42,444 nucleotides of DNA from a virus, in the IMG/VR virus record IMGVR_UViG_3300006734_000014, positions 1 through 42,444 of that record. One strand, given 5' to 3'. Below the pieces are notes generated by a model. That model ran no database searches. It was not told the origin of the DNA and was given only the letters and a program-made list of their open reading frames with translations. The position numbers were made by a program, and so were the translations under genes. Positions 1,237-39,280 of this stretch are shown here, in pieces; within the stretch, counting starts at the first letter, position 1; each line of letters begins with the position of its first letter.

Positions 1237-1261
1237 TAGGACCAGGTAAATTCTGGTCCTA
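1237..1261 (+). promoter_or_regulatory. Perfect 9-bp stem-loop ending on the start codon of the HhH gene
   Basis: Arms TAGGACCAG (1237-1245) and CTGGTCCTA (1253-1261) are exact reverse complements around a 7-base loop. The last paired base is the A of the ATG at 1261. No T-run follows, so it is not a normal terminator. It would lie inside the ribosome footprint. Confidence 0.7.
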
Positions 1262-1689
1262 TGTCTACAACTGCTTCAGCCCTGTATCAACACAAAAAAA
1301 CAGGTGCACGGGTCAAAGTTGTAAGTGAGTGGGATAACGGCGATTGGTTCATGGTCGAAGACCAGGACGGTCGCCTTTTCACCGCTTACAAAACCGAGCT
1401 GGTTCCCGACGAAGCAGCCACGAAGAAAGTTCAGACACTTCAGGTTAAGGATAAGGCTGCTCAAGAGGAGCCTCGTTCTTTTCCGCCTGATACGCGTCTG
1501 AACATCAACGCTGCCACTGCCCAGATGATCGCTGATCATATCAAGGGTATTGGCCTCAAGACTGCCCGTGAGATCAAAGACCTGCAGATGTCCTTATCGG
1601 GTGAAAGGTTCAACAATCTCGAGCAGTTGAAACAGATTAAACGTGTCGATTGGGACGCGGTTTTCTCCGCAGACTTAATTCGAGTCTGA
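1261..1689 (+). CDS. Helix-hairpin-helix (ComEA-like) protein
   Basis: The protein has 142 residues. The N-terminal half (about 1-50) looks like a small beta-barrel, with alternating polar and aromatic residues around EWDNGDWFMVEDQDG. A charged linker follows. From about 78 the C-terminal half reads RLNINAATAQMIADHIKGIG and then LKTAREI, the classic helix-hairpin-helix pattern (NINxA, GIGxxxAxxI) that binds DNA backbones. In this family the motif gives sequence-independent DNA binding. Its place among virion genes suggests a head-associated or DNA-packaging role, which is inference. The ATG at 1261 has no Shine-Dalgarno sequence and sits at the foot of a stem-loop. A terminator follows at 1707. 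Confidence 0.75.
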   Translation: MSTTASALYQHKKTGARVKVVSEWDNGDWFMVEDQDGRLFTAYKTELVPDEAATKKVQTLQVKDKAAQEEPRSFPPDTRLNINAATAQMIADHIKGIGLKTAREIKDLQMSLSGERFNNLEQLKQIKRVDWDAVFSADLIRV

Positions 1690-1706
1690 CTCATCTCCTA
1701 CGGAAG

Positions 1707-1735
1707 ACCCCTGGGAAACCGGGGGTTTTCTTGTT
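1707..1735 (+). terminator. Rho-independent terminator
   Basis: ACCCCTGG (1707-1714) pairs with CCGGGGGT (1719-1726) around GAAA, with one G-T pair. A TTTTC and TTGTTTT tract follows. It probably ends the capsid-region transcript 18 bases after the HhH gene stop. Confidence 0.8.
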
Positions 1736-1756
1736 TTAGAATCAAAAATAAAACGA
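1731..1756 (+). promoter_or_regulatory. Small stem-loop just upstream of a start codon
   Basis: GTTTTA (1733-1738) pairs exactly with TAAAAC (1749-1754). The stem can extend to eight pairs with one wobble, ending at 1756, one base before the ATG at 1758. It directly follows the terminator. The arms are A/T-rich, so this is the weaker kind of example. Confidence 0.45.
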
Positions 1757-1757
1757 T

Positions 1758-2597
1758 ATGGCTTACGTTCCAGTTAGATCTGGTTTTACAGGTCCAAGTA
1801 ATAAGATCGGTGGTTCGTCTCCATACCATGTCGATCTGAAGATGCTGGAATCTCTTCCGATTGCGGATAGAGTAAAAGCTATTGATACGTTAGCAAAGCA
1901 ATATCGTTCTATTGGACGTGAGATTGAGTTCTCCAATGCTGCAGTTTCTGGTCAACGCTGGGACCCAGCCAAAGATTTGAGCGATAAGGTTGACCTTCTC
2001 AACCGTGCTGCTTCTGCGCATGGACACAGCAGGCATCAAGGGTGGCAATCGCTTGACTTTTATGTTCCGTTCAAGAACAAAAGCAGGTTCGATAAAGGCG
2101 CTGTAGAGGACGCCTCGATCTTCTTGCCGGCAGTTCCAGGGGGAAAGGTGCGCAGGGGCTCTGGAGGCGGCTACGGATACTACTCAGAGGCCCTGGATCC
2201 CAGCGGACAGGTTGTGTTCAGGGTTGGTCACGGCAATATAGATCGCCCGGAAAGCCAAGCAGAGATGTCTATTGCTGCTTCAACAACTCCACCTCCTGCT
2301 CCTCAGCTGCCAGCTCCTGAAGGCAGCGGAAACTCAAACCTAACCAATGCTTTTCTGGCAACAATGATCCAGAATCAGCAAGGGCAAAATCAGCTCTTGG
2401 AAGCTCTTACCGAAGCCATCGGAAAGAAAGAACCCCCCAAGAGTATTTCTAAACAACTCTCAGAAGCTATCGTTGGTAATGCACTCAGCCAAGCCTTAAA
2501 TCCTCAAGGATTTCTTAGCAAGTTCATGGGAGAAGATCCATTTCTTCAGGGTAGCGCCATGGGTACCGGCCAGTTCCTGAGCGGAAATCTCTTTTGA
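1758..2597 (+). CDS. Virion-associated protein with an M23-like central segment
   Basis: The protein has 279 residues. The N-terminus is mixed. Residues about 90-160 hold RHQGWQSLDFYVP, then GGKVRRGSGGGYGYY and QVVFRVGHGN. This order resembles an M23 metallopeptidase (His...Asp near a FYVP strand, a GGYG turn, then a strand ending in a His). The usual H-x3-D spacing and the terminal HLHFE motif are missing, so an active enzyme is unlikely unless the family has diverged. A Pro-rich linker (about 193-208, TPPPAPQLPAPEG) and a helical Gln-rich C-terminus follow. No clear Shine-Dalgarno precedes ATG 1758. It may be a scaffold, tail or peptidoglycan-binding virion protein. Confidence 0.6.
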   Translation: MAYVPVRSGFTGPSNKIGGSSPYHVDLKMLESLPIADRVKAIDTLAKQYRSIGREIEFSNAAVSGQRWDPAKDLSDKVDLLNRAASAHGHSRHQGWQSLDFYVPFKNKSRFDKGAVEDASIFLPAVPGGKVRRGSGGGYGYYSEALDPSGQVVFRVGHGNIDRPESQAEMSIAASTTPPPAPQLPAPEGSGNSNLTNAFLATMIQNQQGQNQLLEALTEAIGKKEPPKSISKQLSEAIVGNALSQALNPQGFLSKFMGEDPFLQGSAMGTGQFLSGNLF

Positions 2598-2608
2598 TTA
2601 GCTGCAAC

Positions 2609-2614
2609 TATAAT
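2609..2614 (+). promoter_or_regulatory. TATAAT-like -10 element inside a short dyad
   Basis: TATAAT at 2609-2614 lies within CAACT-ATAATG-AGTTG (2605-2620), a 5-bp inverted repeat. No -35 hexamer is visible at 16-18 bases. It is a candidate host-sigma promoter for the genes from 2637. Confidence 0.35.
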
Positions 2615-2636
2615 GAGTTGATGCTGGAAGGTAGAA

Positions 2637-3098
2637 GTGCAGTTATCTGACTTTGACAAAAGTAGGGTCAGGTATCACCTGGGCTACTTCACTGTTTCTG
2701 TTCCGGCGGGTGACTATGCCCGCTTGGAAGAAGCAATGAATACAGTCCCAGACTCCTACTTCTACGACAAGATCATCATTCAGATTGGTCGTTGCGATAC
2801 AGCAGAAAAGAAGACGGAAGTTGCAAGCTCTCCGTCCACGCGTTTGGAAACGATCCTTGGTGACGTTGACCGTACGATTCGTTCCAGTAATGCCAAGGAG
2901 GCATTAAAAGTCTGGGACGAAATTTACCTGTACGAAACCAATCGTTTGGCTAACATATTGTATGTGCCAAACTATAAAGATCCGTTCCAGGCTCGTTATC
3001 GCTACGAGCGCTCTGGTGCTGAGTTCATTCAGGCGTTACCTGGTCCTGCTGACACCGCTGTTGGCTCACGTATCTATCTCATGGAGAACTGGCGATAA
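2637..3098 (+). CDS. Probable head-tail junction protein (conserved phage structural protein)
   Basis: The protein has 153 residues and starts at GTG 2637 with GGAAGG about eight bases upstream. It begins with LSDFDKSRVRYHLGY, is helical and charged, and has an acidic middle. Its last base is also the first base of the next ATG (3098), so the two genes are translationally coupled. Size, helical character and location after shell genes suit a head-completion or adaptor protein. I infer that from context, and no catalytic motif is visible. Confidence 0.65.
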   Translation: MQLSDFDKSRVRYHLGYFTVSVPAGDYARLEEAMNTVPDSYFYDKIIIQIGRCDTAEKKTEVASSPSTRLETILGDVDRTIRSSNAKEALKVWDEIYLYETNRLANILYVPNYKDPFQARYRYERSGAEFIQALPGPADTAVGSRIYLMENWR

Positions 3099-4435
3099 TG
3101 TTAGGCTTCCTTCGTCAATTCGCTCAGTCGAGCCCACAGGTTCTGCGTGCCATCCAGGGCTTTGGTGCTAAGGCTGCACCTGCTATTAAAGCAGCTGCTG
3201 ATACCGTTACTAACCCAGCTACGTACCGAGCGCTGGCAGGGCAGGCTGAACGGGTGCTCCAGAAACCTTTACCTAAGGCTTTCGCTGGAACAAACTTTGG
3301 CAACATCCCCACTCGTTTCACGGGGATGATCACGGATCTGACCAATGCACCTGCTGGTTTAGCACGCAACGTACAGACCGGCATGGTCAATCGTGCGATC
3401 CAGGAAGCTGCTGGCGTTGCTCCTCAGCTCTCCCGTACCGTGGGGCAGGCAGCAAGCGGTGCTCTGCGTGCTCCTGTCATTGGTGAAGCGTTGCGGGCAG
3501 GTCAATCTGTCATGACCAATCCAATGCAAACTGCCATTCAAGTCGGCGGCCAGTTTGCTCGTGACCCAGGTCTGCGTCGTGAATTCCTTAAGCAGTTCGG
3601 CGGCACCAGTGAGAAAGCTGCTCGTGCTTTGAGTGGACAGGCTGGTTTTGGCCGAGTGGGTAGCCTGCTTCAGAACCTTTCTCCCGGTGGCGCAACTGGC
3701 CTGCGTGGCACTGCGGTTCTCGGTGGAATGGGAGGCATGGCCTGGGGCCTAGGCGATCCAAGTGCGCTGATTGAAGCAAGCCAAGGCGTTCAAGGTTTCC
3801 TGAAGGATCGTGGTTTGATTTACGATCCAGCCAAAGATTCGCGCGTTACTTCAATCCAAGATCGTCCTGTCGTTAATCCTGGTGAGCTTGCACCTGATTA
3901 CAGCGGTGCTCGTGATCGTGCGTTCAGGTTTGCTCAATATGCTGGAATGGATGGAACTGGACCCAGTTCTGCTCTGTTAAATGCTTACGATCAATACCGT
4001 AGAGGAGAATGGCCTGGAGTGACTCCCCCTGGTGGCACCCCGCCGCCAGCCCCGATCCTTCCTCCTCCACAAGGGGCGGGATCGCAAGCCGGACAACAGA
4101 CTCCTTCACCAACTGCACCTCCTGCACCTGGGGCGGTGTCTAACGGGGCCGGTGTTCCCGCACAACGCCAAAATGTTCAACAACGCGCGCTCTCTCAAGA
4201 AGTACTTAATGCTGCTCAGCAGTACGCTGCTCCTGCAGGTGTCCCCCTTTCTTCCTTCTATTCGGGCCAGCAGCAACTGGGTAGGAGCATGGAGCAGACT
4301 GGAGAGCTACAGCGTCGGTTGAAGGATCTTGGTGGTGCAGCCGGGATGAGCAACGAAGCCCTGATGCAATGGGCTCAAGCCAATCCGGAACTTGCCTACC
4401 GCGAACTGATGAAACTCCAAGGGAGGAGCCGGTAA
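3098..4435 (+). CDS. Ala/Gly/Pro-rich internal or tail virion protein
   Basis: The 445-residue protein begins with a helical N-terminus rich in Ala and Gly (FAQSSPQVLRAIQGFGAK). It continues through a long low-complexity helical body with glycine-rich hydrophobic patches near residues 195-215. A proline-rich linker (about 308-345) leads to a Gln- and Glu-rich helical C-terminus. Such alternation of amphipathic helix and flexible linker is typical of internal or ejected virion proteins that pass through the membrane, such as the T7 gp14-gp16 group. No direct homology is claimed. The gene is coupled at both ends, sharing a base with the previous stop and with the next ATG at 4435. Confidence 0.65.
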   Translation: MLGFLRQFAQSSPQVLRAIQGFGAKAAPAIKAAADTVTNPATYRALAGQAERVLQKPLPKAFAGTNFGNIPTRFTGMITDLTNAPAGLARNVQTGMVNRAIQEAAGVAPQLSRTVGQAASGALRAPVIGEALRAGQSVMTNPMQTAIQVGGQFARDPGLRREFLKQFGGTSEKAARALSGQAGFGRVGSLLQNLSPGGATGLRGTAVLGGMGGMAWGLGDPSALIEASQGVQGFLKDRGLIYDPAKDSRVTSIQDRPVVNPGELAPDYSGARDRAFRFAQYAGMDGTGPSSALLNAYDQYRRGEWPGVTPPGGTPPPAPILPPPQGAGSQAGQQTPSPTAPPAPGAVSNGAGVPAQRQNVQQRALSQEVLNAAQQYAAPAGVPLSSFYSGQQQLGRSMEQTGELQRRLKDLGGAAGMSNEALMQWAQANPELAYRELMKLQGRSR

Positions 4436-5112
4436 TGGCACCTAGGGTTGGCATCCTTCCACCGGAAGAGCGCATGGCCATCTTCCGTGGAGCCAAGCAA
4501 TTAGGCTTGGATCCATACGAATTTGGTGCGTTCCTTTCACTTGAATCGGGTCCAAATATGGATCCGAACATTGTGGGAGGTGCCGGTGGTCGTCACAAAG
4601 GTCTCATCCAGTTCGGTCAAAATGAACAACGACAGTACGGCATCTCTGGTCCACAGACCCGAGCTGGTCAGATGGACGCAGTTTTGCAGTACTTTCAAGA
4701 CCGTGGTTACAAACCAGGCATGGGAATTGCTCGTGCTTATGCAACTGTTCTTGGTGGTAATCCCAACGTTTCTTTGACATCACAGGATTCGTTCGGCACT
4801 TCGGTGCAATCAATGCTTCCTCGTTTCAGAAAAGGTGGTGATTACTACGCCAATGCACAACGAGTACTGGGGGATTTACCTCCAGAATTTGGTGCACCTG
4901 TTGGACAAGTTGCGCAAACACCTGCACCATCACCTGCACCTGTTGCTGCTGTCCCAACGACTACAGCAAAACGTAAGCAAAAAGCTGAGTCGCTTCTCAG
5001 TGACGTAAAAGAAGGGATTGTGCAGCAACTCCTGCGTAATGCACTTCAGGTTCCCAGTGTTCCAGGGGCCTTTGGCGCCATGGGTTTCCAAGGTATGGGT
5101 AAGTTGTTCTAA
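4435..5112 (+). CDS. Virion lysozyme/transglycosylase-like protein
   Basis: I place the start at ATG 4435 and not at the ATG at 4369, because it overlaps the previous stop (TAATG) and is preceded by GGGAGGAG. That gives 225 residues. The N-terminal region contains FGAFLSLESGPN, with Glu37 placed like the catalytic Glu of lysozyme-type transglycosylases, then GGAGGRHKGLIQFG, which parallels the GxxGLMQ motif of that fold. A Pro/Ala linker and a basic helical tail follow. A virion-carried transglycosylase would open peptidoglycan locally during DNA entry. The fold assignment comes from motifs only. The stop overlaps the ATG at 5112. Confidence 0.65.
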   Translation: MAPRVGILPPEERMAIFRGAKQLGLDPYEFGAFLSLESGPNMDPNIVGGAGGRHKGLIQFGQNEQRQYGISGPQTRAGQMDAVLQYFQDRGYKPGMGIARAYATVLGGNPNVSLTSQDSFGTSVQSMLPRFRKGGDYYANAQRVLGDLPPEFGAPVGQVAQTPAPSPAPVAAVPTTTAKRKQKAESLLSDVKEGIVQQLLRNALQVPSVPGAFGAMGFQGMGKLF

Positions 5113-5399
5113 TGTCGTATATCGAATACGCTGACAAATATCTACCGGGTGAGGTGTACCGCAGCCAGTATGGTGGTGCGGGCACCAATCCCTTTTATCA
5201 ACTGTACGCAAAAACAAAAAAAGGTGTGAAGTTCACACCTCAAGAGGAAGACACGATGTCTGGGGAATCGTTCCAGCGGTTTCTTAATCTTCAAAGGAAT
5301 CCTTCTTCTCTCTTTTCAGAAGCAGTGAAGTATCCAGAAGGATTCAATCAGTACATGAGCCTGGTCCGTGAGTTTGGCTTGAATCCGGGCTCGGTGTAG
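5112..5399 (+). CDS. Small virion-operon protein, function unknown
   Basis: The 95-residue protein starts at an ATG overlapping the previous stop (TAATG). It is rich in Tyr, Phe and Glu, with the motif YADKYLPGEVYRSQYGG, and no membrane segment is seen. Its last 56 bases overlap the 3' end of the opposite-strand endonuclease, so that gene was probably inserted against its end. Whether the present C-terminus (FGLNPGSV) is original cannot be judged here. Confidence 0.65.
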   Translation: MSYIEYADKYLPGEVYRSQYGGAGTNPFYQLYAKTKKGVKFTPQEEDTMSGESFQRFLNLQRNPSSLFSEAVKYPEGFNQYMSLVREFGLNPGSV

Positions 5400-5946
5400 T
5401 AATTGCAAAGGCTCTTTCCAAGGGCCAGCCTTTGTTGAGGCGTTTCTGCATTGACTGTGGAGTAATGCCTACCTCTCTGGCCCAATCCGCGATGCATTGG
5501 GTTTTCCCGTTAAAAGTATAAAGGCGAGTGGCACGCTTGCCTCCTCTGTTGCGAGTTTGCTCTTTTCTTGTAGCCCATCGACAGTTTTCTTTACAGTAGT
5601 TTTTATCGTTATTAATCCTTTCTAGTTCCATTTTGGGATCTGGTTTCTTGCCCATATCTGCCAGAAACACCGTAAAGTCTTCCCAAGCGGGATCGTAGCC
5701 AATTCCACGTCCACCATAACGTTCATAATGGGTTGTGCCAATGCAATTACAGCGGCTTTTCATTGCACACCATGAACCGTATTCTGGTGTTCTATCTCTG
5801 TTTCCACCATGCTTAAAAGAAGCGCAGTTTTTTGAACAATAGACATACCCTCTATCTCGCAAACGCTTTCTATGCCAAGCTGCGGTATTGCCTTGGCGTT
5901 CGTAAAACTTGCCACAGCAAGCGCACCGAAAAGTTGTTTGTGCCAT
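5344..5946 (-). CDS. HNH/AP2-type homing endonuclease
   Basis: The protein has 200 residues, on the strand opposite to all its neighbours. An N-terminal zinc-binding segment has CACCGKFY followed by YCSKNC. The nuclease-like core reads TPEYGSWCAMKSRC, YGGRGIGYDPAWEDF, ADMGKKP, ELERINNDKNY and NCRWATRKEQTRNR, a familiar phage endonuclease series. The C-terminus (FNGKTQCIADWAREVG...LNKGWPLERAF) is a NUMOD-like DNA-binding repeat. Such genes spread by cutting alleles that lack them. It sits inside an otherwise continuous plus-strand virion operon, so it is best seen as a mobile insertion. Confidence 0.85.
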   Translation of the reverse strand: MAQTTFRCACCGKFYERQGNTAAWHRKRLRDRGYVYCSKNCASFKHGGNRDRTPEYGSWCAMKSRCNCIGTTHYERYGGRGIGYDPAWEDFTVFLADMGKKPDPKMELERINNDKNYCKENCRWATRKEQTRNRGGKRATRLYTFNGKTQCIADWAREVGITPQSMQKRLNKGWPLERAFAITTPSPDSSQTHGPGSCTD

Positions 5947-5971
5947 TAGAATAAGAGAAGTTTTCGGAGGC

Positions 5972-5996
5972 CCCTGTCAAAGTAGCATAGACAGGG
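5972..5996 (+). promoter_or_regulatory. 7-bp stem-loop ending on a GTG start
   Basis: CCCTGTC (5972-5978) pairs exactly with GACAGGG (5990-5996) around 11 bases. The final G is the first base of the GTG chosen as start of the next gene. It lies between the divergent endonuclease and the downstream virion gene. Confidence 0.6.
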
Positions 5997-6787
5997 TGTT
6001 TAGTCAAATATCCAGTACTAGCAGCAACAAACAGCCCGTATTTGTTGACCGCCCGCTGTTTGATTCGGTGCGGGTCACAACTCAGACGGTTGGCAGCCAA
6101 GCAGGTAATACTATCTTTGTGCAAGGTGGTCAAGCGCCTTCCATCCTGGTGGATATGGATGCTGCCCTGGAGGAAGATAATAACAATGGCGGCGTGGTGG
6201 AAGCAATCACTATTATCCGCAATGATTATTACCGAGACGTTGATTATACTGTTTCATCCGGCACTTCCGGAAATGTTATATCGCTTACCAGTGGGCAGAT
6301 CGTTTTCATCTCTGATACTGGTGTTTTGACCAATGGTGTAGCCAGCGGATACGGTTACTACACATACACTGGCGGCTCCACTCTGACTGGAGTCAATACT
6401 GCACTTGACTACTCGGGTGGCACGACATCTGGTTTCTTGTACAACGGTGTCAGTTATGGTTATCAACCTGCTGTAACGTTTGTGTTCTATCACACTCGTG
6501 GCACGACGACTCCGATTCCAGCTTCTGGTGATTATCAAGTACTGTTTGCTAAAAAGGTCCCGGCTAATACGCAACGGGTTGATTGCACTGACGTAATGCC
6601 AGAACTGGCTGTGCCTGTTGTCTCTGCTGGTAATACGAACGGTCTTGGCGAAGGTGCCCCCTTGCGCAACAAGGGCGTTTACCTGGAGCGTGGCGACCGT
6701 ATTTACGTTGGCGTTTTTCCGGACGGCCCCAACATTTCTGGTTACATCCCAGGCGCACATATCACGGCACAAGGCGGTTTCTTCTGA
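5996..6787 (+). CDS. Beta-rich virion structural protein
   Basis: I choose GTG 5996 (263 residues). The earlier ATG at 5909 would overlap the opposite endonuclease gene, and the residues it adds look unstructured. The protein has many Gly, Thr, Ser, Val and Tyr residues with repeated strand-turn patterns (SGYGYYTYTGGS, TFVFYHTRGTT). It ends with a well-formed domain containing ERGDRIYVGVF. This suits a tail or head surface protein. It lies directly upstream of a large structural gene (two-base gap), so the two are cotranscribed. The start is uncertain because of the endonuclease insertion. Confidence 0.65.
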   Translation: MFSQISSTSSNKQPVFVDRPLFDSVRVTTQTVGSQAGNTIFVQGGQAPSILVDMDAALEEDNNNGGVVEAITIIRNDYYRDVDYTVSSGTSGNVISLTSGQIVFISDTGVLTNGVASGYGYYTYTGGSTLTGVNTALDYSGGTTSGFLYNGVSYGYQPAVTFVFYHTRGTTTPIPASGDYQVLFAKKVPANTQRVDCTDVMPELAVPVVSAGNTNGLGEGAPLRNKGVYLERGDRIYVGVFPDGPNISGYIPGAHITAQGGFF

Positions 6788-6789
6788 TC

Positions 6790-31773: not shown

Positions 31774-31803
31774 GGGGAGGTCTGATTTGGGTGTTCCCTT
31801 ATC

Positions 31804-31872: not shown

Positions 31873-31999
31873 TTGTCTCAAGTGGATCTAATTCTTCAAA
31901 CTGTTTTAGTAGCCGTTCGTACACCTGCAGTGCATCTTCCCTGGTAACAACAGCTGTCTCACATGCGACTTGCCATGCGTGACGTTTACGGCTTTCCAT
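31847..31999 (-). CDS. 50-residue hypothetical protein
   Basis: It begins MESRKRHAWQVACETAVVTR and continues EDALQVYERLLKQFEELDPL with an acidic tail. The ATG overlaps the stop of the upstream gene by 14 bases, and composition is like its neighbours. Small helical proteins of this kind are frequent in phage replication operons. Function is unknown. Confidence 0.5.
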   Translation of the reverse strand: MESRKRHAWQVACETAVVTREDALQVYERLLKQFEELDPLETNAESNKTH

Positions 32000-32267: not shown

Positions 32268-33102
32268 AAATAGAACAGTTGTCAACCTGCTTGTAGTATT
32301 CAGCAACAACCTTCAGCCAATCTTCTCTCAGCGAATCAAGAAACCGCCTGGAAATCTTGAAGATCTGAGTCCTGACTGGAGTCGACACTAGGATTGCAGC
32401 CTGGTCCACTTTGAGACCAAGGGTTTGTTCAATAGCCATATCGTAGGCAGCGAGTTGTTTGCATGTCTTTTTAAATTTCATGTACCCACCGAGCAGGTCA
32501 CGCCATTCCTGCGAACCCTTCTCGTATTCCTTAGGCCACTTGCGGCTGTAAGGCTTCACACTGGTCTTCAGATCAGCGAGAGTAAGTTTATTGCGAACCA
32601 CACCGATAATGTCAGGAGCGCCAGCCCAAGCACGACCCTCATCGTCGCACCCCCATACGCGAGCCACATCATCAGCACCAATTGTGAAGTTAAAGTCATC
32701 ACAAACAGGAGACTCTGCCCACAGAACATCAGAAAACTGATCCAGAATCGGCGGCATCCCCGCCCAAAAATCCTTGTATTCATCAGGGATCTCAGGATTT
32801 TTGTTTCCTTTTAGGTACTGCTCCATGCCAAAGTGAACTGCAGTACCGCGCTCAGCAGCAGCTTCTTTGACGCCTGGATTTGCTTTCGACCACATTTCAA
32901 GCTTCCGTTTGTTTGCTTCGGAAGCTGTTTCGCTGATAATAGTGGTTACGGACGGCGCAGGTCCAGTAGGTAACGGAGTGGTGTAATGCCTTTTTCCGTT
33001 AAGCGTAATTCTGGCTGCGGTCCTATTCAGTGACCGCATAGTCTCTGGTTGCTGATCCTTAGCGTAAATCCAAGGATCGTTTGTCTCTATCTTAGCAACC
33101 AT
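32248..33102 (-). CDS. PD-(D/E)XK exonuclease (RecB/Cas4-like)
   Basis: All core residues of the fold are seen in the 284-residue protein: ERGTAVHFGME (His90), WAESPV (Glu130), AWAGAPDIIGVV (Asp164), LTLADLKTS (Asp177 and Lys179) and KQLAAYDMAIE (Gln216-x3-Tyr220). Such phage exonucleases degrade host DNA or resect ends for recombination-driven replication. It heads the minus-strand replication operon, and a short stem (33097-33110) lies over its start codon. Confidence 0.85.
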   Translation of the reverse strand: MVAKIETNDPWIYAKDQQPETMRSLNRTAARITLNGKRHYTTPLPTGPAPSVTTIISETASEANKRKLEMWSKANPGVKEAAAERGTAVHFGMEQYLKGNKNPEIPDEYKDFWAGMPPILDQFSDVLWAESPVCDDFNFTIGADDVARVWGCDDEGRAWAGAPDIIGVVRNKLTLADLKTSVKPYSRKWPKEYEKGSQEWRDLLGGYMKFKKTCKQLAAYDMAIEQTLGLKVDQAAILVSTPVRTQIFKISRRFLDSLREDWLKVVAEYYKQVDNCSIYEADLV

Positions 33103-33110
33103 TGATGGTT
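33097..33110 (-). promoter_or_regulatory. Short dyad over the exonuclease start codon
   Basis: AACC and GGTT flank ATTGAT, and the symmetry extends to AACCAT and ATGGTT with only two bases between. The minus-strand ATG (33102-33100) is inside the dyad. With four to six pairs it is weak. Confidence 0.3.
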
Positions 33111-33154
33111 TTGTTTATTGCGCCTAATCTAGTACAAAAGGAAGGACTTTAGTT

Positions 33155-33256
33155 GTGCAAGGATTCAATTACGCGATTGCTGCAGTCCTAGGAGCTATGC
33201 TTGTGGTCATCAGCCTTGACGCTTACATATTCCTGAAAGAGGTTGCCGCACGATGA
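33155..33256 (+). CDS. 33-residue single-span membrane protein next to hli
   Basis: The GTG start has a strong Shine-Dalgarno (GGAAGGA, eight bases upstream), rare in this genome. The protein is MQGFNYAIAAVLGAMLVVIS followed by LDAYIFLKEVAAR: one membrane helix with a short charged end. Its stop overlaps the hli ATG (ATGA), so it is translated together with it. In size and layout it is like the small photosystem or cytochrome b6f subunits, but it matches none that I recall. Thylakoid location is inferred from the partner. Confidence 0.65.
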   Translation: MQGFNYAIAAVLGAMLVVISLDAYIFLKEVAAR

Positions 33257-33501
33257 ACGCCTTACAAAAGACCAAGCTCTGGATCTTGGGGATGTGGTCA
33301 TGCATCAGCTGGGTGATTGTTGAGATTTACAAAGAGTACTGTCCTGATCTGAACTTCAAAAACATCCCGCTCCACCCGTCTGACTACATCTGGTATGCAG
33401 AACGCTGGAACGGAAGGGCAGCCATGCTTGCCGTTGTCTTTATCTTGCAGTGGGAGTTGATTACCGGCCAGTCAATTTGGGAGTTCATAGGTGTCCGTTA
33501 A
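33253..33501 (+). CDS. hli: High-light-inducible protein (Hli) with an extra N-terminal hydrophobic segment
   Basis: The 82-residue protein holds the Hli signature ERWNGRAAMLAVVFIL followed by E and TGQSIWEF, at about residues 50-77. Glu50, Asn53 and Arg55 are the chlorophyll-binding and ion-pair residues of the LHC fold. Hli proteins quench energy and protect photosystem II, and cyanophages carry them to keep photosynthesis running. Phage Hli are usually 35-60 residues with one span. Here residues 8-28 (KLWILGMWSCISWVIVEIY) form a further hydrophobic stretch. It overlaps the genes on both sides. Confidence 0.85.
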   Translation: MNALQKTKLWILGMWSCISWVIVEIYKEYCPDLNFKNIPLHPSDYIWYAERWNGRAAMLAVVFILQWELITGQSIWEFIGVR

Positions 33502-33652
33502 GCTTACCCGTTTTTACTACGACGTGGATGAGGAGGTGCGTACTGCGTGCTTCCGCAACAAGTCGTGCGATGAGGTTGACACCGACAAAGCAGACGAGTA
33601 TGAAGAGTACCTAAAACAAACGGGTATCGACTATACCCGCATAGACCTCTGA
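33491..33652 (+). CDS. 53-residue acidic protein of the hli operon
   Basis: Starting at GTG 33491, inside the end of hli, it reads SVKLTRFYYDVDEEVRTACF, then RNKSCDEVDTDKADEYEEYL. It ends with the TGATG that opens the glycosyltransferase gene. The strong coupling on both sides supports a real gene. It has two Cys and many acidic residues and no known motif. A CGGGTAT...ATACCCG stem (33621-33639) lies inside its end. Confidence 0.55.
   Translation: MSVKLTRFYYDVDEEVRTACFRNKSCDEVDTDKADEYEEYLKQTGIDYTRIDL
33621..33639 (+). promoter_or_regulatory. 7-bp perfect stem-loop upstream of a glycosyltransferase start
   Basis: CGGGTAT and ATACCCG flank CGACT. The stem ends 12 bases before ATG 33652 and lies within the preceding coding sequence. 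Confidence 0.45.
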
Positions 33653-34497
33653 TGGCAGCACCGATCCTGGCTGTACTGACTCTGTGGCGAGACAGCGGTG
33701 ATTACATTACTGATTCCCTGGCCCGGTTTGACGAGATGGAATATCTCCTCAACAAGCAGGGCATTGGTTGCGTCTACTCATTTTTTGAGAACGATTCCGA
33801 GGACAACACCCCATTTGAACTGCTCAGTTGGCTGCGGAAACACAAAGGTATTTTGCAATCTGAAACCATTGGCGCACCTCGGTGGGGCAGCGTCTCCTCC
33901 CTAGATCGAGTTCGTTACCAGGCCCGGTACCGCAACCTGGCACTCCAACCCCTGAATGCGTATTACAACTATGACTATCTGTTGGTAGCCGATAGCGATG
34001 TCCACTGGGAACCTGATCTCCCACTAGAAATGATCAAACGCCTGGACAAGGAGGAGAGCTGGGGGATGGTGTCACCCAACACAATACAGAACGTACGCGA
34101 CTACGTAGAAGATACCGACCGCCCCTCCTATTTTGATAGCTGGTCCCTCAAAGACAGGGACGACAATCAGTGCTTGACCTTTGCTGCAAATCCTTTCTTG
34201 CGAAAGACGGATCGAGAACGGTGGGAGAAAGGCCAACCCGTGTCATGCAATAGTGCGTTTGGCTCGATTGCCATGGTGAAAGCTGAGGCCATGGAATGCC
34301 AAGACGGTGTTGAGTGGGCCGTAGTTGATGGTGTAGAGCACTGGGAATTTTGTGCTGGTCTCCGCAGCAATGGATATAAGGTCATCGCTGATCCCAGTTT
34401 GCATGCTGAGATCGTGCACAAAAAAGAGGTGGTGCCCCACCCCGATATTGTTCAGTATCACCGAGACCGTCTTCAGGTTGCCCTGGCAACGTCGTAA
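33652..34497 (+). CDS. CAP59/Anp1-like glycosyltransferase
   Basis: The 281-residue protein has a GT-A-type plan: LTLWRDSGDYITDSLARFDE at the start, CVYSFFENDSEDNTPFELLS, DYLLVADSDVHWEPDLPLEM with the DSD metal motif, and EHWEFCAGLRSNGYKVIADP near the end. These features recall the fungal CAP59/Anp1 mannosyltransferase group. A second, more distant member lies at 36716. The donor cannot be read, but the nearby gmd suggests a GDP-hexose. Its 3' end overlaps that of gmd by 25 bases. Confidence 0.75.
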   Translation: MAAPILAVLTLWRDSGDYITDSLARFDEMEYLLNKQGIGCVYSFFENDSEDNTPFELLSWLRKHKGILQSETIGAPRWGSVSSLDRVRYQARYRNLALQPLNAYYNYDYLLVADSDVHWEPDLPLEMIKRLDKEESWGMVSPNTIQNVRDYVEDTDRPSYFDSWSLKDRDDNQCLTFAANPFLRKTDRERWEKGQPVSCNSAFGSIAMVKAEAMECQDGVEWAVVDGVEHWEFCAGLRSNGYKVIADPSLHAEIVHKKEVVPHPDIVQYHRDRLQVALATS

Positions 34498-35498
34498 GAA
34501 ACCATCTCCTCTACCAGATCTTCCAGGGTGGAATTAAGTTTCCACCCTAATTTTTTCTGTGCATAGCTGGAGTCACCAAGCAGGGAATCTACTTCTGCTG
34601 GACGGTAGTACTCAGGGTTGATGCGGATTACCACCTGATCAATCTTAGGACAGTACCCAACCTCATCAATGCCTTCTCCTTCCCATACGATGGGCAGACC
34701 AGCCTTGTCAAAAGCCATCTCACAGAAGGTACGGACACTCGTTTGTTGACCCGTGGCAATCACATAGTCACCCGGCTCATCTTGCTGGAGCATCAGGTAC
34801 ATGGCTTCCACATAGTCACGGGCATGCCCCCAGTCCCGCTTGGCATCCAGGTTACCCAGCTCAACAAACTCTTGACGGCCACGCCAGATCTGACCAACTG
34901 CCCTGGTGATCTTACGCGTCACGAACTCTTCGCCACGAAGCGGTGATTCGTGGTTGAAAAGGATGCCGTTACACCCGAATAGGCCGTAGCTTTCCCGGTA
35001 GTTGATTGTCAGCCAGTACCCAAACAACTTGGCGACACCGTATGGACTACGCGGATAGAAGGGCGTCGATTCTACTTGGGGCACCTGCTGCACCTTGCCG
35101 AACATCTCTGATGTTGCAGCTTGGTAGAACTTTGGTTTGGCATTGGCATTACGACAAGCCTCCAAAATATTCAACACCCCTATTGCGTTCGTATACGAGG
35201 TACTCCCTGGTGACTTAAAGCTGACACCTACATGACTCTGAGCTGCCAGATTGTACACCTCATCTGGAGCAAAGGAATCTACAGCCCGATGCACAGAGGT
35301 GGCATCGGTCATATCGGAGTACTCAAACTTGACTTCAGCCGGGATCTGACCATGAAAGATCCACTTGAGTTTGTCTTTGCTGCCTGGGTTTGCGTTGTTA
35401 CGAATCAAGCCCAGAACCTGGTACCCCTTATCGATCAAGCTACGGGTGAGGTAGGCGCCATCTTGACCGGTAATTCCAGTGATCAGTGCTTTTTTCAT
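34473..35498 (-). CDS. gmd: GDP-mannose 4,6-dehydratase
   Basis: The 341-residue length is usual for the family. ITGITGQDGAYL (6-17) is the NADP-binding loop. AATSEMFG holds Thr129 and Glu131, SPYGVAKLFG holds Tyr153 and Lys157, and NHESPLRGEEFVTRKITRA with LDAKRDWGHARDYVEAM form the GDP-sugar site. It converts GDP-D-mannose to GDP-4-keto-6-deoxy-mannose, the entry to GDP-fucose, perosamine, rhamnose or colitose. The divergent gene at 35550 acts on this type of product. Gmd genes occur in other cyanophages and are thought to alter surface sugars. Confidence 0.95.
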   Translation of the reverse strand: MKKALITGITGQDGAYLTRSLIDKGYQVLGLIRNNANPGSKDKLKWIFHGQIPAEVKFEYSDMTDATSVHRAVDSFAPDEVYNLAAQSHVGVSFKSPGSTSYTNAIGVLNILEACRNANAKPKFYQAATSEMFGKVQQVPQVESTPFYPRSPYGVAKLFGYWLTINYRESYGLFGCNGILFNHESPLRGEEFVTRKITRAVGQIWRGRQEFVELGNLDAKRDWGHARDYVEAMYLMLQQDEPGDYVIATGQQTSVRTFCEMAFDKAGLPIVWEGEGIDEVGYCPKIDQVVIRINPEYYRPAEVDSLLGDSSYAQKKLGWKLNSTLEDLVEEMVSYDVARAT

Positions 35499-35500
35499 CG

Positions 35501-35529
35501 AGACTTCTGTCTATACTCGTAACTATAAC
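35501..35529. promoter_or_regulatory. Divergent promoter region between gmd and the PLP enzyme
   Basis: TATAGA on the minus strand (35510-35515) and TATAAC on the plus strand (35524-35529) lie back to back. AGAC/GTCT (35501-35512) forms a small stem next to the gmd ATG. Confidence 0.35.
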
Positions 35530-35549
35530 CAGGATGTAAAGCGGTGGAC

Positions 35550-36728
35550 ATGGCTCTGTTTGATTGGCCGCTCCAGAAAAACACCATCGGCTTTGACGAA
35601 AAGCTGGCGCTGATCAAATTCATTCTTACCAGTGACCGTTTTACCAACGGTCCCAAGTGCCGTGAGTTTGAGAACGAATGGTCCCGCTGGCAGGGATGCA
35701 AGTACAGTTTGTTTGTCAGCAGCGGCTCTACCGCCAACACTCTCTTGCTTGACGCAACACGAGAACTACTGTTTGGCAAGAATGAAAAGCTGACAATCTT
35801 GTGCCCTGCTGTCAACTGGGCAACTAACATCTCGACCTTCAAACAACAAGGTCACGACATTTATTTCTATGACATCGATTACTATCGCTACTCACCAACC
35901 CTTGAATCTCTGGAGTACCTTCAGTCTCAGGGCGTAAAGCCTGACATCATTTACGCCACCCACCTGATGGGGTTTGGTGCCAACCTCAACATTGTTCGTT
36001 CGTTCTGGCCTGAGGCAATTCTACTGGAAGACTGTTGTGAATCCCATGGAGCAATTACGTTCGACTGTAAGAAGGTAGGCAACCTGGGACTTGGCTCAAC
36101 CTTTTCGTTTTACTTTGGCCATCACATGACCACCATTGAAGGTGGCATGGTATGCACAAATAACGAGAAATTGTATAACTTAATGCGTGCAAAAAGGTCT
36201 CATGGCTTATCTCGTGAGATGTATGGACAGTACCGGCTTGATATAGAGAATCAGTACGAAGATATTGATCCGGCCTTCCTGTTTCCAACCGAAGGATATA
36301 ACTTCCGGAACAATGAATTAGGAGCTGTAATTGGTAAAGTACAACTTAAAAAACTAAATGAGTTCATATATCAACGTGCCGCAAATTATCGTAAGTTTGA
36401 AAATGAAATGCATGAGCACCCAGCTATCAAACACCTACCCAATCACTGGGGCAACAGCGCCATGACACTTCCGTTCCATTGTGTCTCAGCTGAGTCTCGT
36501 GATTACATGATGAACTTCCTCAGGTACTTGGGCGTTGAAACCCGTCCGTTCCTGGTAGGCAACCTGTTGCGTCAGCCCTTCATGAAGGACTACGACAAGA
36601 GTGTGCGTTTGCCCAACACAGAAGAAATCCATACCCACTCCTTCTATATTGGGAACAACCATTTCATCAATGAGCGTCAGGTTAAGGCGCTTACTGACAA
36701 ACTCCATCAGTACCAATGCGTGCTCTGA
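35550..36728 (+). CDS. DegT-fold PLP enzyme with His in place of the catalytic Lys (ColD/E1-like sugar 3-dehydratase)
   Basis: From ATG 35550 it has 392 residues (a GTG two codons earlier is possible). The fold is the DegT/DnrJ/EryC1 sugar aminotransferase type: FVSSGSTANTLLLDA (cofactor loop), YATHLMGFGANLN, LLEDCCESHGA (Asp) and LGSTFSFYFGHHMTTIEGGM. In sugar aminotransferases the residue six before the Glu of GEGG or AEGG is the Lys that holds PLP. Here it is His191. The same change marks ColD, which removes the 3-hydroxyl of GDP-4-keto-6-deoxy-mannose, and E1 enzymes. With gmd next door, GDP-4-keto-3,6-dideoxy-mannose is the likely product. No ColC-like partner is seen. Confidence 0.8.
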   Translation: MALFDWPLQKNTIGFDEKLALIKFILTSDRFTNGPKCREFENEWSRWQGCKYSLFVSSGSTANTLLLDATRELLFGKNEKLTILCPAVNWATNISTFKQQGHDIYFYDIDYYRYSPTLESLEYLQSQGVKPDIIYATHLMGFGANLNIVRSFWPEAILLEDCCESHGAITFDCKKVGNLGLGSTFSFYFGHHMTTIEGGMVCTNNEKLYNLMRAKRSHGLSREMYGQYRLDIENQYEDIDPAFLFPTEGYNFRNNELGAVIGKVQLKKLNEFIYQRAANYRKFENEMHEHPAIKHLPNHWGNSAMTLPFHCVSAESRDYMMNFLRYLGVETRPFLVGNLLRQPFMKDYDKSVRLPNTEEIHTHSFYIGNNHFINERQVKALTDKLHQYQCVL

Positions 36729-37450
36729 TCTCGACCATCGTTCGCAACCGTGGACGCCACATCTCATCTTGGGCCAACCAACTAATCCAGCTGGCTGAGC
36801 AAAACCCTGATGTGGTGTTCGACTTGTTTGTGTTCGAGAATGACTCAACGGATACAACAAAACAGGCTCTACTTGCTGTAGAGCCTTTACTCAACAAAAA
36901 ACTAAACAAGGTTGACATTCAAATCACCAACCTTGATTGGCCCTATTTTCATTCCGTTAAAGCAGAACAACGAGTTGACTACCTGGCACAAGCCAGGAAC
37001 AAAACATTGGATCGTGCACACGAGGTTTACAACCTCGCTACATATGACAAGGTGGTGTGCATTGAACCTGACATCAGCTATCACACGTTTGCAATCGGTA
37101 AACTTCTGTACACCGATCTTGATATTGCCTCTGGTTACAGCTTCCTTCCCCAGGGAATGGGCGTACCAGATTGGATCTATGACAGCTGGGCAACCCGAGT
37201 ACATCCAGAGGATAGTGAATACTTCGGCCCACACATTTCTGAACTGCCTGAGTGTTTGCCCGTAGCTTCTACTTTCAATTGTTTCTGCGTCTACCAAGCA
37301 CAACCATTTATTGACGGCGTCCGTTTCTCTGGTATCAACCCACGCACCAAAACCTGGGACTGCGACACAACCAACATCTGTTTTGAATTTGCAGATCGGG
37401 GATACGACAAAATTGGCATGTACAACATTGGCGTTCTCCATAAACCCTGA
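36716..37450 (+). CDS. CAP59/Anp1-like glycosyltransferase (second copy)
   Basis: The protein has 244 residues. VFENDSTDTTKQALLAVEPL, YLAQARNKTLDRAHEV, DKVVCIEPDISYHTFAIGKL and TFNCFCVYQAQPFIDGVRFSG follow the order of fungal CAP59/Anp1 transferases. It lies just after the ColD-like gene, overlapping its end by 13 bases. It shares FENDS with the transferase at 33652. It might transfer the dideoxy sugar made by gmd and the PLP enzyme, which is inference. Confidence 0.75.
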   Translation: MRALISTIVRNRGRHISSWANQLIQLAEQNPDVVFDLFVFENDSTDTTKQALLAVEPLLNKKLNKVDIQITNLDWPYFHSVKAEQRVDYLAQARNKTLDRAHEVYNLATYDKVVCIEPDISYHTFAIGKLLYTDLDIASGYSFLPQGMGVPDWIYDSWATRVHPEDSEYFGPHISELPECLPVASTFNCFCVYQAQPFIDGVRFSGINPRTKTWDCDTTNICFEFADRGYDKIGMYNIGVLHKP

Positions 37451-37452
37451 TC

Positions 37453-37484
37453 GGTTGACACACCTGCTATTGTTGAGTTAACCG
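37453..37484 (+). promoter_or_regulatory. Promoter candidate with a consensus -35 box
   Basis: TTGACA (37455-37460) is followed 17 bases later by TTAACC, a poor -10. CGGTT and AACCG at the outer ends form a possible stem. It would serve the small-gene cluster from 37499. Confidence 0.3.
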
Positions 37485-37498
37485 TATTGCGTACAAGT

Positions 37499-37699
37499 AT
37501 GTCTCTGCCAGAATATGAAGAAGCACTTCTGAAGGGTTACGAATTCCTCGAAAACCACAATCAGTTGCTGCATAGTTTACAGCTGTCCCGCATCAATGTT
37601 GATAATCACACCTATACTGAGAACACCCAAGGAATCGGAAATGAGCCTCTCCAGCCAAGTGAAGGAATCGGTCAACCAGGCAGCGGAGAACCTGCGTGA
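37499..37699 (+). CDS. Small hypothetical protein
   Basis: From ATG 37499 it has 66 residues: SLPEYEEALLKGYEFLENHN, then QLLHSLQLSRINVDNH and a Gly/Pro/Gln-rich end. The first half is one long helix. It overlaps the next gene by 59 bases in another frame, as do several genes in this cluster. Function is unknown. Confidence 0.5.
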   Translation: MSLPEYEEALLKGYEFLENHNQLLHSLQLSRINVDNHTYTENTQGIGNEPLQPSEGIGQPGSGEPA

Positions 37700-37841
37700 T
37701 GCGCTTGCGTTTGCTGCACGCGGCGAACATCCCATTGTGATCAGCATGCTTTCTGATATGCTGACCAGGCTTGACTCCTTGGAGCAGATGGATGAGTTCA
37801 TGGAGAAATTCAGCGGTGCCGCAAGCAAGTCGCAAGGCTAG
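37641..37841 (+). CDS. Small helical protein found in many cyanophages (SSQVKESVNQAAENLRDAL type)
   Basis: From ATG 37641 it has 66 residues. SLSSQVKESVNQAAENLRDA is followed by FAARGEHPIVISMLSDMLTR and LDSLEQMDEFMEKF. This two- to three-helix protein, with the AARxERP- or AARGEHP-like turn, recurs in cyanopodo- and cyanosiphophages. I do not know its role. A frame start at 37596 is less likely. Confidence 0.7.
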   Translation: MSLSSQVKESVNQAAENLRDALAFAARGEHPIVISMLSDMLTRLDSLEQMDEFMEKFSGAASKSQG

Positions 37842-38034
37842 ACAACCGACAGAACAAGAACGACTAGAAGAATACTTCTGGAAGTTACAGGGCATGATTC
37901 CCATGCCCCCTAAGAATTGGGCTGCAAATGCTAAGCCATGTAGGTGGGCTAAAATACTAGAAGAACGTAAGAACAATCCCGATGGCTCAGGAGAGCGGGA
38001 AGTACACGAAACCGGGCCTTCGGGAAAAGATTAA
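37816..38034 (+). CDS. Small conserved protein (FWKLQGMIPMPPKNWAAN type)
   Basis: GTG 37816 lies inside the end of the previous gene and gives 72 residues. QERLEEYFWKLQGMIPMPPK and NWAANAKPCRWAKILEERK form the conserved part, and the sequence after about residue 55 lies over the next gene and looks accidental. The pattern is familiar from other cyanophages. Function is unknown. Confidence 0.6.
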   Translation: MPQASRKARQPTEQERLEEYFWKLQGMIPMPPKNWAANAKPCRWAKILEERKNNPDGSGEREVHETGPSGKD

Positions 38035-38266
38035 AGACCGTGTGATGGCTGGCTCCAAGGGTGGCAAACCCGGTCAGTGGTCTGCACGTAAAGCTCAGAT
38101 TGTTGCCCGTGAGTATGAAGAAGCGGGTGGCGGATACAAGGGCGGCAAAGGTGAGAAGCAGAAGTCCCTGGAGAAATGGGGCAAAGAGAAGTGGATGACA
38201 AAGGACGAGTACGAAAAACGCAGCAAAGCTAAAGCTGCAGCCAAAAAGTACAAGGATAGTAAGTGA
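37982..38266 (+). CDS. DUF5872-like basic protein
   Basis: The 94-residue protein reads ESGKYTKPGLREKIKDRVMA, then GSKGGKPGQWSARKAQIVAR and SLEKWGKEKWMTKDEYEKRS. These are the hallmarks of the DUF5872 family found in large DNA viruses and phages. It is strongly basic and may bind DNA or a virion surface. Its stop overlaps the next ATG (TGATG), and that gene is of similar type. Confidence 0.8.
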   Translation: MAQESGKYTKPGLREKIKDRVMAGSKGGKPGQWSARKAQIVAREYEEAGGGYKGGKGEKQKSLEKWGKEKWMTKDEYEKRSKAKAAAKKYKDSK

Positions 38267-38469
38267 TGGCAGACAAGGCTATACAGAAGGGATATACCAA
38301 GCGGTACCTACCAGAGAAAGCCTGGGCCTCTCTGTCCAAAGAAGAGCGTACGGAGACCGACCAGAAGAAGCGAAAAGCCAGCCGCGAGGGTAAACAGTTT
38401 GTTCCTAACACTGAGCGTGCCAAGAAAGCTGGTCGCGCGGCACGTCGCTACAAAGAATCCAAGTCATGA
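38266..38469 (+). CDS. Small basic protein (KRYLPEKAWASLS type)
   Basis: ATG 38266 gives 67 residues: KGYTKRYLPEKAWASLSKEE, then a Lys/Arg-rich middle and FVPNTERAKKAGRAARRY. It is coupled to the DUF5872-like gene by TGATG. The YVPNT or FVPNT plus AGRAAR ending occurs in similar small viral proteins. Function unknown, DNA binding likely from charge. Confidence 0.7.
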   Translation: MADKAIQKGYTKRYLPEKAWASLSKEERTETDQKKRKASREGKQFVPNTERAKKAGRAARRYKESKS

Positions 38470-38481
38470 TATCCTGACAAA

Positions 38482-38555
38482 CGGAGCAATACCGCTCTGG
38501 GACTAATAGTCGAACAGTCCCTAACTGTTACGAACGTAGTGCTTCGCAACAAGTT
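38482..38555 (+). ncRNA. Structured leader RNA candidate with three stem-loops
   Basis: Three stem-loops follow closely: CGGAGC/GCTCTG (38482-38499), GGGACT/AGTCCC (38499-38521, six exact pairs, 11-base loop), and AACT-GTT-CGAA with TTCG-AAC-AGTT (38523-38555, about eleven pairs with one mismatch and one bulge). A terminator follows 20 bases later, just before a start codon. The sequence codes for nothing. The layout resembles an attenuator or riboswitch leader. I could not match it to a known class. Confidence 0.5.
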
Positions 38556-38574
38556 GAGTAGGTAGGAAGTTATG

Positions 38575-38602
38575 ATCCCGGTTTAGTACACCGGGATTTT
38601 TT
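38575..38602 (+). terminator. Rho-independent terminator directly before a start codon
   Basis: ATCCCGG (38575-38581) pairs with CCGGGAT (38591-38597) around nine bases, then TTTTTT. The GTG of the next gene begins one base after this tract. Confidence 0.85.
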
Positions 38603-39280
38603 GTGACTACTCTTGTCGCCAACGTACCTCCAGTCAAAGTCTGGGTACGTCGCGAGTATCTACGTGACCTACGTGATGGACACGGTGAGTACACGCCAGG
38701 TTATTGGGTGACGTGCAAGTCCTTGACAGGACGTGCCCTCTACTTTGAAACTTACCTTACGGCCTATGGTGCGTTATACGACAAGCTTCCCATCAGCGCG
38801 TTTCTTGCCTGGGATTCTGACCACCCAGACAAGCCTGTAGCACCTACACCAGACCTGGAGCTAACCGACCTGCAGTTCTGGAATGGGTTCGATACAGGTC
38901 TGACCGTAATCGAAAAGAACCTCATTTATAACATGGAGTTCCAGGTGATGACCCGCAGTGCCGGGATCATGACTGGCGAGTACCTCTTTACGATTGATAA
39001 CTACCACCCTCACCGCAACGAACCAGACTTTTACTTTGCTGAGTTTCCAGACGAGCACAAGTCCCACAACATTGTGGCCCTGTCAAATGGACAGATTGGT
39101 GCCTACCCAAACAACAGGTGCCGCATGGTTGACCCATCGCTTAGCAACCACAACCTCAAAACACCAGACTTTAAGGTATCAACAAGATACTTTGACGTAG
39201 AACACGCCCCCAAATGGGGTCGTCTTGGAGAATGTGATGATTACTTTTGGAAGACACCAAACGAGAAAGATGTACAATAA
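38603..39280 (+). CDS. Conserved hypothetical phage protein
   Basis: From GTG 38603 the protein has 225 residues: VKVWVRREYLRDLRDGHGEY, then ALYFETYLTAYGALYDKLPI and DNYHPHRNEPDFYFAEFPDE. It is rich in Tyr, His and Asp, with no membrane segment. The same opening (VWVRREYLRDL) is known to me from other cyanophage hypothetical proteins. The start is flush with a terminator, so it is either made from its own transcript past that terminator or is under attenuation. Confidence 0.7.
   Translation: MTTLVANVPPVKVWVRREYLRDLRDGHGEYTPGYWVTCKSLTGRALYFETYLTAYGALYDKLPISAFLAWDSDHPDKPVAPTPDLELTDLQFWNGFDTGLTVIEKNLIYNMEFQVMTRSAGIMTGEYLFTIDNYHPHRNEPDFYFAEFPDEHKSHNIVALSNGQIGAYPNNRCRMVDPSLSNHNLKTPDFKVSTRYFDVEHAPKWGRLGECDDYFWKTPNEKDVQ

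Follow-up and report, generated by a model that had tools for sequence, protein, structure and literature searches.

Why do several genes of one viral genome begin at the very foot of a stem-loop, inside the ribosome footprint? The question arises in the window, by which we mean the whole 42,444-nucleotide (nt) stretch of IMG/VR record IMGVR_UViG_3300006734_000014, where inverted repeats end at or near the start codons of the genes at 1261, 12986, 14026, 22946, 28575 (minus strand), and 38603 (genes are named by their start positions). We favor, at a probability of about 0.72, the reading that these stems are RNA read-through locks of the type found at T4 e, soc, and I-TevI, present here in an unrelated cyanophage lineage. 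In a freshwater group of cyanobacterial viruses, certain genes seem to have an RNA hairpin set directly at the start codon; from their sequences, these genes would include two cell-wall-degrading enzymes, a glycosyltransferase, and an HNH endonuclease, with a terminase added in relatives. The stems, their spacing, the conservation of their pairing, the excess of G.U pairs, and the predicted loss of the lock in RNA from the gene's own promoter were all computed.

The proposed lock depends on where a promoter sits. A −10-only promoter would be located within or next to the 5' arm of the stem, 21–26 nt upstream of the start codon. RNA entering from upstream would carry both arms, and its hairpin would bury the ribosome landing site together with the start codon; in the form seen at 38603, a T run would make the lock terminator-like as well. 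RNA from the gene's own promoter would have its first base within the loop or among the last bases of the 5' arm and, because of that start, could not form the hairpin. Its leader, short (~14–20 nt) and free of a Shine-Dalgarno (SD) word, would be open for initiation. With the lock confined to read-through RNA, the gene would therefore be translated solely when its own promoter fires, which these promoters would presumably do late.

All six genes share one layout, in which a TAnnnT hexamer lies 21–26 nt before the start codon and overlaps or almost touches the 5' arm, so that the predicted transcription start (+1) falls in the last bases of that arm or in the loop. At 1261–1689 (plus strand; product with a helix-hairpin-helix match below cut-off), the hexamer TAAACT (1232–1237) lies 23 nt before the start and predicts a +1 at 1244 (A); the hairpin (1237–1261) pairs 1237–1245 with 1253–1261, 9 base pairs (bp) around a 7-nt loop, and its 3' arm terminates on the A of ATG. 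The phage lysozyme gene 12986–13639 (plus strand; Pfam PF00959) has TAGTAT at 12959–12964, 21 nt before the start, a predicted +1 at 12971 (A), and a hairpin at 12963–12987 (arms 12963–12971/12979–12987, 9 bp, 7-nt loop) whose 3' arm includes the AT of ATG. At the HNH endonuclease gene 14026–14463 (plus strand; PHROG 3106), TATAAT (13999–14004) lies within the 5' arm, 21 nt before the start, with a predicted +1 at 14011 (A); the hairpin at 13997–14024 has perfect 9-bp arms (13997–14005/14016–14024) and a 10-nt loop. The gene 22946–24049 (plus strand), by domain search a glucosaminidase joined to a C39-like peptidase, has TAGAGT (22918–22923) at 22 nt from the start, in overlap with the 5' arm, and a predicted +1 at 22930 (A) that falls within the loop of a perfect 9-bp hairpin (22914–22942; arms 22914–22922/22934–22942, 11-nt loop). 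At 14026 and 22946 the hexamer forms part of the arm itself. On the minus strand, the glycosyltransferase gene 28575–27313 (domain search) is preceded at 22 nt by TATAGT (28598–28603), with a predicted +1 at 28591 (A) and a 7-bp hairpin at 28578–28596 (5' arm 28596–28590, 3' arm 28584–28578, 5-nt loop). The sixth gene, 38603–39280 (plus strand), encodes a product assigned to PHROG 3704 (label ferredoxin) without Pfam match, whose S-EIV1 homolog is labelled PurM. Its hexamer TATGAT (38571–38576) lies 26 nt before the start, with a predicted +1 at 38583 (T), and its terminator-form lock (38575–38602) has 8-bp arms (38575–38582/38590–38597), a 7-nt loop, and a T run reaching the GTG. The initial annotation, an earlier reading of this DNA that pointed out the stems, had set 38603 apart as a terminator, yet it carries the same promoter-in-stem layout as the others. 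The positions given there for the stems were borne out at these six genes and at 5996 and 12825.

Judged by sequence similarity, the window comes from a cyanophage whose closest deposited relative is Synechococcus phage S-EIV1 (megablast of the window: 6% query cover, 77.7% identity). The two primases are 55.7% identical across 98% of their length, and the gene order, compared by eye, matches the deposited S-EIV1 annotation. IMG/VR scans with four anchor proteins supplied further relatives (1, 56, the best 80 of 111, and the best 80 of 111 loci, many of them sharing contigs). Homolog counts left out BLAST alignments starting past residue 8 (window queries) or 15 (S-EIV1 queries), matches lacking a start codon close to where the alignment began, and loci with <90 nt upstream, and near-identical leaders were removed (identity >80–90%, with the cut-off varying by analysis).

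Flush stems, defined as perfect stems with a stacking energy ≤ −9 kcal/mol that end at −6 to +2 of the start, occurred at 9 of the 54 window starts, whereas 200 dinucleotide-shuffled sets averaged 1.12 (maximum 4). With a stricter limit of ≤ −12 kcal/mol there were six such starts against 0.33 in shuffles, and 18 of 332 internal in-frame ATG/GTG codons had a stem of ≤ −9 kcal/mol. This comparison is post hoc because the 54 starts were hand-picked and include the sites already singled out by the initial annotation. The shuffling that the annotation had proposed as a check thus came out in its favor, flush stems being rarer in shuffled leaders than in the window (9/54 vs. 1.1); the stems are real, but the sites do not all form one class. 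At the deposited starts of S-EIV1, flush stems numbered 6 of 128 against 3.2 expected, a count reached by 18 of 200 shuffles; stem density or start calls therefore differ from those of the window. Homologs in relatives provide independent support for the stems.

Conservation of pairing was assessed by a blind half-swap test, in which the 3' half of each leader was exchanged with the halves of its homologs and folding was compared, across 51 window families with at least three non-redundant leaders. Strong signals were found at 22946 (z = −11.1, n = 59), 12986 (z = −8.0, n = 22), and 28575 (z = −7.3, n = 46), with weaker ones at 38603 (z = −4.1, n = 11), 5996 (z = −3.4, n = 13), and 12825 (z = −2.6, n = 19). 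Two further families, 37596 (z = −4.0, n = 25) and 14460 on the minus strand (z = −3.6, n = 17), were not counted, the first being a mixture of dissimilar leaders and the second resembling, by eye, coding sequence of an overlapping gene. The remaining 43 families lay between −2.0 and +2.1. With S-EIV1 queries and more contigs, z ≤ −4 was obtained at the start in 8 of 88 families, and in shifted-window controls in 1 of 88 (42 nt upstream) and 1 of 86 (39 nt downstream). Five of the eight were the counterparts of 22946, 12986, 28575, 1261 (the S-EIV1 62875 family; z = −4.7, n = 14), and 38603; the others were the terminase gene (z = −5.2, n = 15) and two leaders of terminator-like form. At 12986, where 28 leaders (27 distinct) with one form of the stem were compared, 94.4% of cells were paired, against 36–71% in slid registers (none above 71.3%), and six of the eight pairs had changes on both sides. 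Four of five measures beat all shuffles; the number of double-changed pairs was reached by 13 of 500. The stems thus vary with compensating changes in relatives, the second check that had been proposed for them. Chance stems picked by eye would agree with the result for S-EIV1 alone and with the failure of several of the annotated sites in homologs; set against the compensating changes and the half-swap results, this explanation is scarcely credible, and it is refuted for 12986, 22946, and 28575. The site at 12825 remains doubtful.

The palindromes overlap the promoter and might instead act as DNA, as an operator or as an extruded promoter hairpin on double- or single-stranded DNA. Mismatches within the stems bear on this directly. 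Among 112 leaders of six families, in which stems were found via Watson-Crick pairs with any mismatch permitted inside, there were 53 G.U, 11 A.C, and 33 other mismatches, and control stems from the same search 40 nt upstream had 18 G.U, 24 A.C, and 66 other (the tallies count inherited changes more than once). The G.U excess, which stems from the 12986 and 22946 families, indicates that the coding-strand RNA is the paired form; a DNA device would treat G.U and A.C alike. Furthermore, a single protein would not recognize all the palindromes, since their arms are unrelated from gene to gene. A DNA palindrome is consequently disfavored and, given the G.U excess, rejected as highly improbable.

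The hexamer is a putative promoter element. TA[TAG][AGT]NT at a spacing of 20–24 was present at 16 of 54 window starts against 3.8 in shuffles (maximum 10 in 300) and at 27 of 128 S-EIV1 starts against 8.8 (maximum 19). Many homologous families have it almost invariably at 20–24 and hardly ever at 40–44: 94% vs. 0 at 12986 (n = 52), 94% vs. 1% at 28575 (n = 70), and 100% vs. 0 at 8997 (n = 31). When 182 leaders of ten stem-less families were aligned on the hexamer, the sole informative position outside it was an A 7 nt past the hexamer (0.66), and no −35 word was seen, with information <0.15 at the expected place. The same A was found in 0.89 of 46 leaders at 22946 and 0.89 of 54 at 28575; in the 12986 family it is shifted one base later (0.77 of 30). 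Seven nt past the hexamer is the position at which a bacterial sigma-70 type promoter would start. An A occupies the predicted +1 in five of five window locks on both strands (38603 and 12825 excepted). The promoters of this phage group seem, from these alignments, to consist of the −10 hexamer and the +1 A only, and the hexamer is probably a promoter used at the predicted +1. The initial annotation had described arms that share no sequence; this is true between genes, but the hexamer at near-constant spacing was overlooked. Its remark that stem genes usually lack an SD sequence holds, as SD-like words (−18 to −6) were found at 8 of the 54 starts and at none of the stem genes. Two phage-encoded readers of the hexamer were considered and set aside. 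A phage sigma factor was not matched (PF04542, Sigma70_r2, in 0 of 8 records, with 10 of 14 control genomes positive; other sigma types not searched). For a single-subunit RNA polymerase of the phage, which could initiate immediately past the motif, PF00940 was unmatched in 16 relatives (S-CBP3 control positive) and also in eight other records, where the control itself was silent.

If transcription begins at the predicted +1, the gene's own RNA lacks the lock. Across eight families with 201 non-redundant leaders, with the hexamer sought at 17–28, folding gave a flush hairpin in 143, and 134 of these also had a hexamer. In these 134, the 5' arm lay wholly upstream of the predicted +1 in 66, was cut by it in 61, and lay wholly inside the own transcript in 7. 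This bears on a suggestion of the initial annotation, that the stems protect or process mRNA. In that case the own mRNA would start with the whole hairpin, which would shield its 5' end or be cut by a nuclease. Such a role would suit stems located at the 5' terminus of the predicted mRNA, with conservation at the RNA level, and the promoter assignment leaves room for transcription to begin ahead of the arm. Because the predicted +1 is instead within or past the 5' arm, 5'-end protection is rejected as the main explanation: the hexamer either overlaps the arm or comes close to touching it, an entire hairpin is predicted in the own transcript in just the seven leaders above, a second hexamer at spacing 40–44 occurs in 0–13% of lock-family leaders, and the polymerase that could start nearer the motif, the single-subunit type, was the one unmatched in the 16 relatives. 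We consider protection or processing unlikely.

The lock reading predicts a helix over the initiation region in the long transcript and its loss in the short one. Opening cost, the energy for freeing −12 to +5 from structure, was calculated for RNA from −60 and for RNA from the predicted +1. It fell from 14.7 to 2.8 kcal/mol at 1261, from 12.7 to 5.3 at 12986, from 11.4 to 2.6 at 14026, from 19.8 to 3.0 at 22946, from 9.2 to 1.8 at 28575, and from 18.0 to 7.6 at 38603. Over six lock families (135 leaders) the median fell from 10.7 to 3.4 kcal/mol, with a drop of at least 4 in 93 leaders; in eleven promoter families without a lock (176 leaders) it fell from 5.1 to 3.9 kcal/mol, so that the long transcripts differ by 10.7 vs. 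5.1. Longer transcripts may run into the lock genes: a co-directional open frame ends a short way upstream in the majority of leaders for four of the five lock families examined, and in 12 of 27 for 12986. The stems are probably regulatory in character, as the initial annotation had suggested.

Two other explanations take account of what lies upstream of the stems. They could insulate transcription, as terminators of the upstream unit set against the next promoter and acting on transcription, not translation. The stem and T run directly before the GTG at 38603, its homologs, and the L157 homolog of the HNH gene point that way, as do the terminator-like stems 8–12 nt before ATG in the 35948 and 36728 families of S-EIV1 relatives. 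An intrinsic terminator has a GC-rich stem followed by a T run, however, and 1261, 12986, 14026, 22946, and 28575 have no T run 3' of the stem; several 3' arms even enter the start codon. Insulation is improbable as the general explanation. Translational coupling, in which a start shut by the hairpin would open when a ribosome finishing the upstream gene melts it, is favored by a co-directional open frame ending at most 150 nt upstream in 59 of 62 (22946), 39 of 50 (28575), and 12 of 27 (12986) leaders, at a median of 41, 26, and 38 nt before the start, respectively. The gap to the upstream frame differs widely among homologs, though, and coupling leaves a 5'-arm promoter at near-constant spacing unexplained, which makes it very unlikely.

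Several points weigh against the read-through lock. The read-through RNA and its translational repression are themselves deduced, and S-EIV1 taken alone has no significant genome-wide excess of flush stems (6/128 vs. 3.2). A perfect flush stem was found in just 43% of 75 homologs at 22946 and 44% of 70 at 28575, and 14026 has three homologs, too few for testing, with a flush stem in two. The predicted own transcripts of 1261, 12986, and 28575 retain the last 1–2 bases of the 5' arm. A drop in opening cost of at least 4 kcal/mol was likewise seen in 19 of the 176 leaders without a lock, and promoter-bearing families without a lock are common (2637, 8997, primase). There is no G.U excess in the 28575 family (3 G.U vs. 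6 A.C) or the terminase family (3 vs. 3), and much of that at 22946 may be one inherited change. The broader proposal is that hairpins with embedded promoters serve the whole lineage as a general lock on chosen genes (lysis, glycosyltransferase, HNH, terminase, and others), with −10-only promoters and without SD, that this lock evolved independently of T4, and that it works in two modes, one burying the start codon and the other terminating transcription there. It stands in our estimate at even odds.

The initial annotation knew of no described class with stems in exactly this position, which overlooks the leaders of T4 e, soc, 49, I-TevI, mobE, and segB (mobE belonging to Aeh1); these have a late promoter in the 5' arm (PMC3014915, PMC2988022). 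They are alike in that a hairpin covers the initiation region solely in long transcripts and the 5'-arm promoter gives a short hairpin-free RNA, and in that the locks are carried by the lysozyme gene and homing endonucleases (PMC3014915, PMC2988022). With the code used here, T4 gene e shows a similar drop in opening cost, from 16.2 to 4.7 or 2.0 kcal/mol for its two late promoters. Unlike the cyanophage stems, at whose genes SD-like words were not found (−18 to −6), those of T4 bury a strong SD. The T4 late promoter is TATAAATA, whereas the hexamer here is TAnnnT without −35, and PF04542 was matched in none of the eight records; the T4 machinery therefore differs and the principle does not. 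The cyanophage locks are also found on glycosyltransferase and terminase genes, in an unrelated phage lineage. IS10/IS50 transposase leaders are protected from outside transcription in a comparable way, a parallel unconfirmed in the literature searched: read-through RNA folds over the start region and inner-promoter RNA does not, but these leaders belong to transposon ends and a single gene, with SD involved. In phage operator hairpins of the kind found at the MS2 replicase start, the 3' arm likewise includes or adjoins the start codon; there a protein binds a fixed sequence, whereas the arms and loops of the cyanophage stems vary from gene to gene. T4 genes 25 and 38 likewise have a hairpin immediately before the start codon, a split-SD structure that aids initiation by bringing a distant SD near (PMC3014915). 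In the cyanophage leaders, the outer foot of the stem is taken up by the hexamer and apparently not by an SD (SD scan covering −18 to −6).

The principle is thus already known from T4 (PMC3014915, PMC2988022). No such leaders in the S-EIV1 lineage were described in the titles and abstract openings of the mainly non-subscription literature searched, and a conserved, covarying, multi-gene lock, as predicted here for a cyanophage lineage unrelated to T4 with a −10-only promoter and no SD, appears to be new. If true, it gives a testable rule of gene timing for a widespread, little-studied cyanobacterial virus group, and the T4 device of concealing one half of the hairpin within a promoter likely arose more than once, guarding a lysis gene again. 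Structure at a start codon may be favored by selection when it acts on the wrong transcript alone. Covarying stems cut by a −10 hexamer also offer a sequence-only route to promoters and transcription starts in uncultured phages.

Other sites that the initial annotation grouped with the locks (1758, 5996, 13675, 33102, 33652, and 35498) are unlike things and not members. At 1758, a GC-rich terminator-like stem lies farther upstream, together with a weak AT stem. Flush perfect stems occurred in 11% of 56 homologous leaders at 13675 (half-swap z = 0.0), 9% of 47 at 33102 (z = −1.6), 0 of 12 at 33652 (z = 0.1), and 0 of 6 at 35498 (z = 0.0). The 7-bp stem at 5996, whose last base is the G of GTG, keeps a high opening cost (15.4 to 12.1 kcal/mol, with spacing assumed) and is excluded as lying at the right end of a stretch (5400–5995) of ~600 bp that is ~40 bp between the homologous S-EIV1 genes. 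A minus-strand frame there (5344–5946, 200 amino acids) has no Pfam match. DNA like 5400–5995 occurs in relatives L002, L142, and L228, and DNA like its right end alone in L211 and L145; the stem in L211 has a T-A to C-G change. The small open reading frame at 12825 (plus strand) is a doubtful member of the class. Its stem at 12791–12824 (arms 12791–12800/12815–12824) is flush and 10 bp long with one mismatch, the hexamer TAAGCT lies at 12795–12800, and a perfect flush stem was found in 10% of 21 homologs.

Among S-EIV1 relatives, the minus-strand families 35948 and 36728 (half-swap z = −4.9 and −4.4) were also not taken as locks, being terminator-like and without a hexamer. S-EIV1 (35948–36283 and 36728–36949, minus strand), L004/L003, and relatives have covarying GC-rich terminator-like stems there, 8–12 nt before ATG. 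In the L157 homolog of 14026, a long stem surrounds a TATACT hexamer and is followed by a T run directly before the GTG; it may be a terminator-form lock on the HNH gene. At another HNH gene (8997–9347), relatives keep the sequence of the leader (8964–8997) from hexamer to ATG and not its structure (20 of 43 leaders viewed); the HNH protein might bind the leader or use it for homing. Rfam at gathering scores gave a single match in the window, a tRNA; a tRNA-Pro gene with anticodon tgg lies at 39383–39454 (plus strand).

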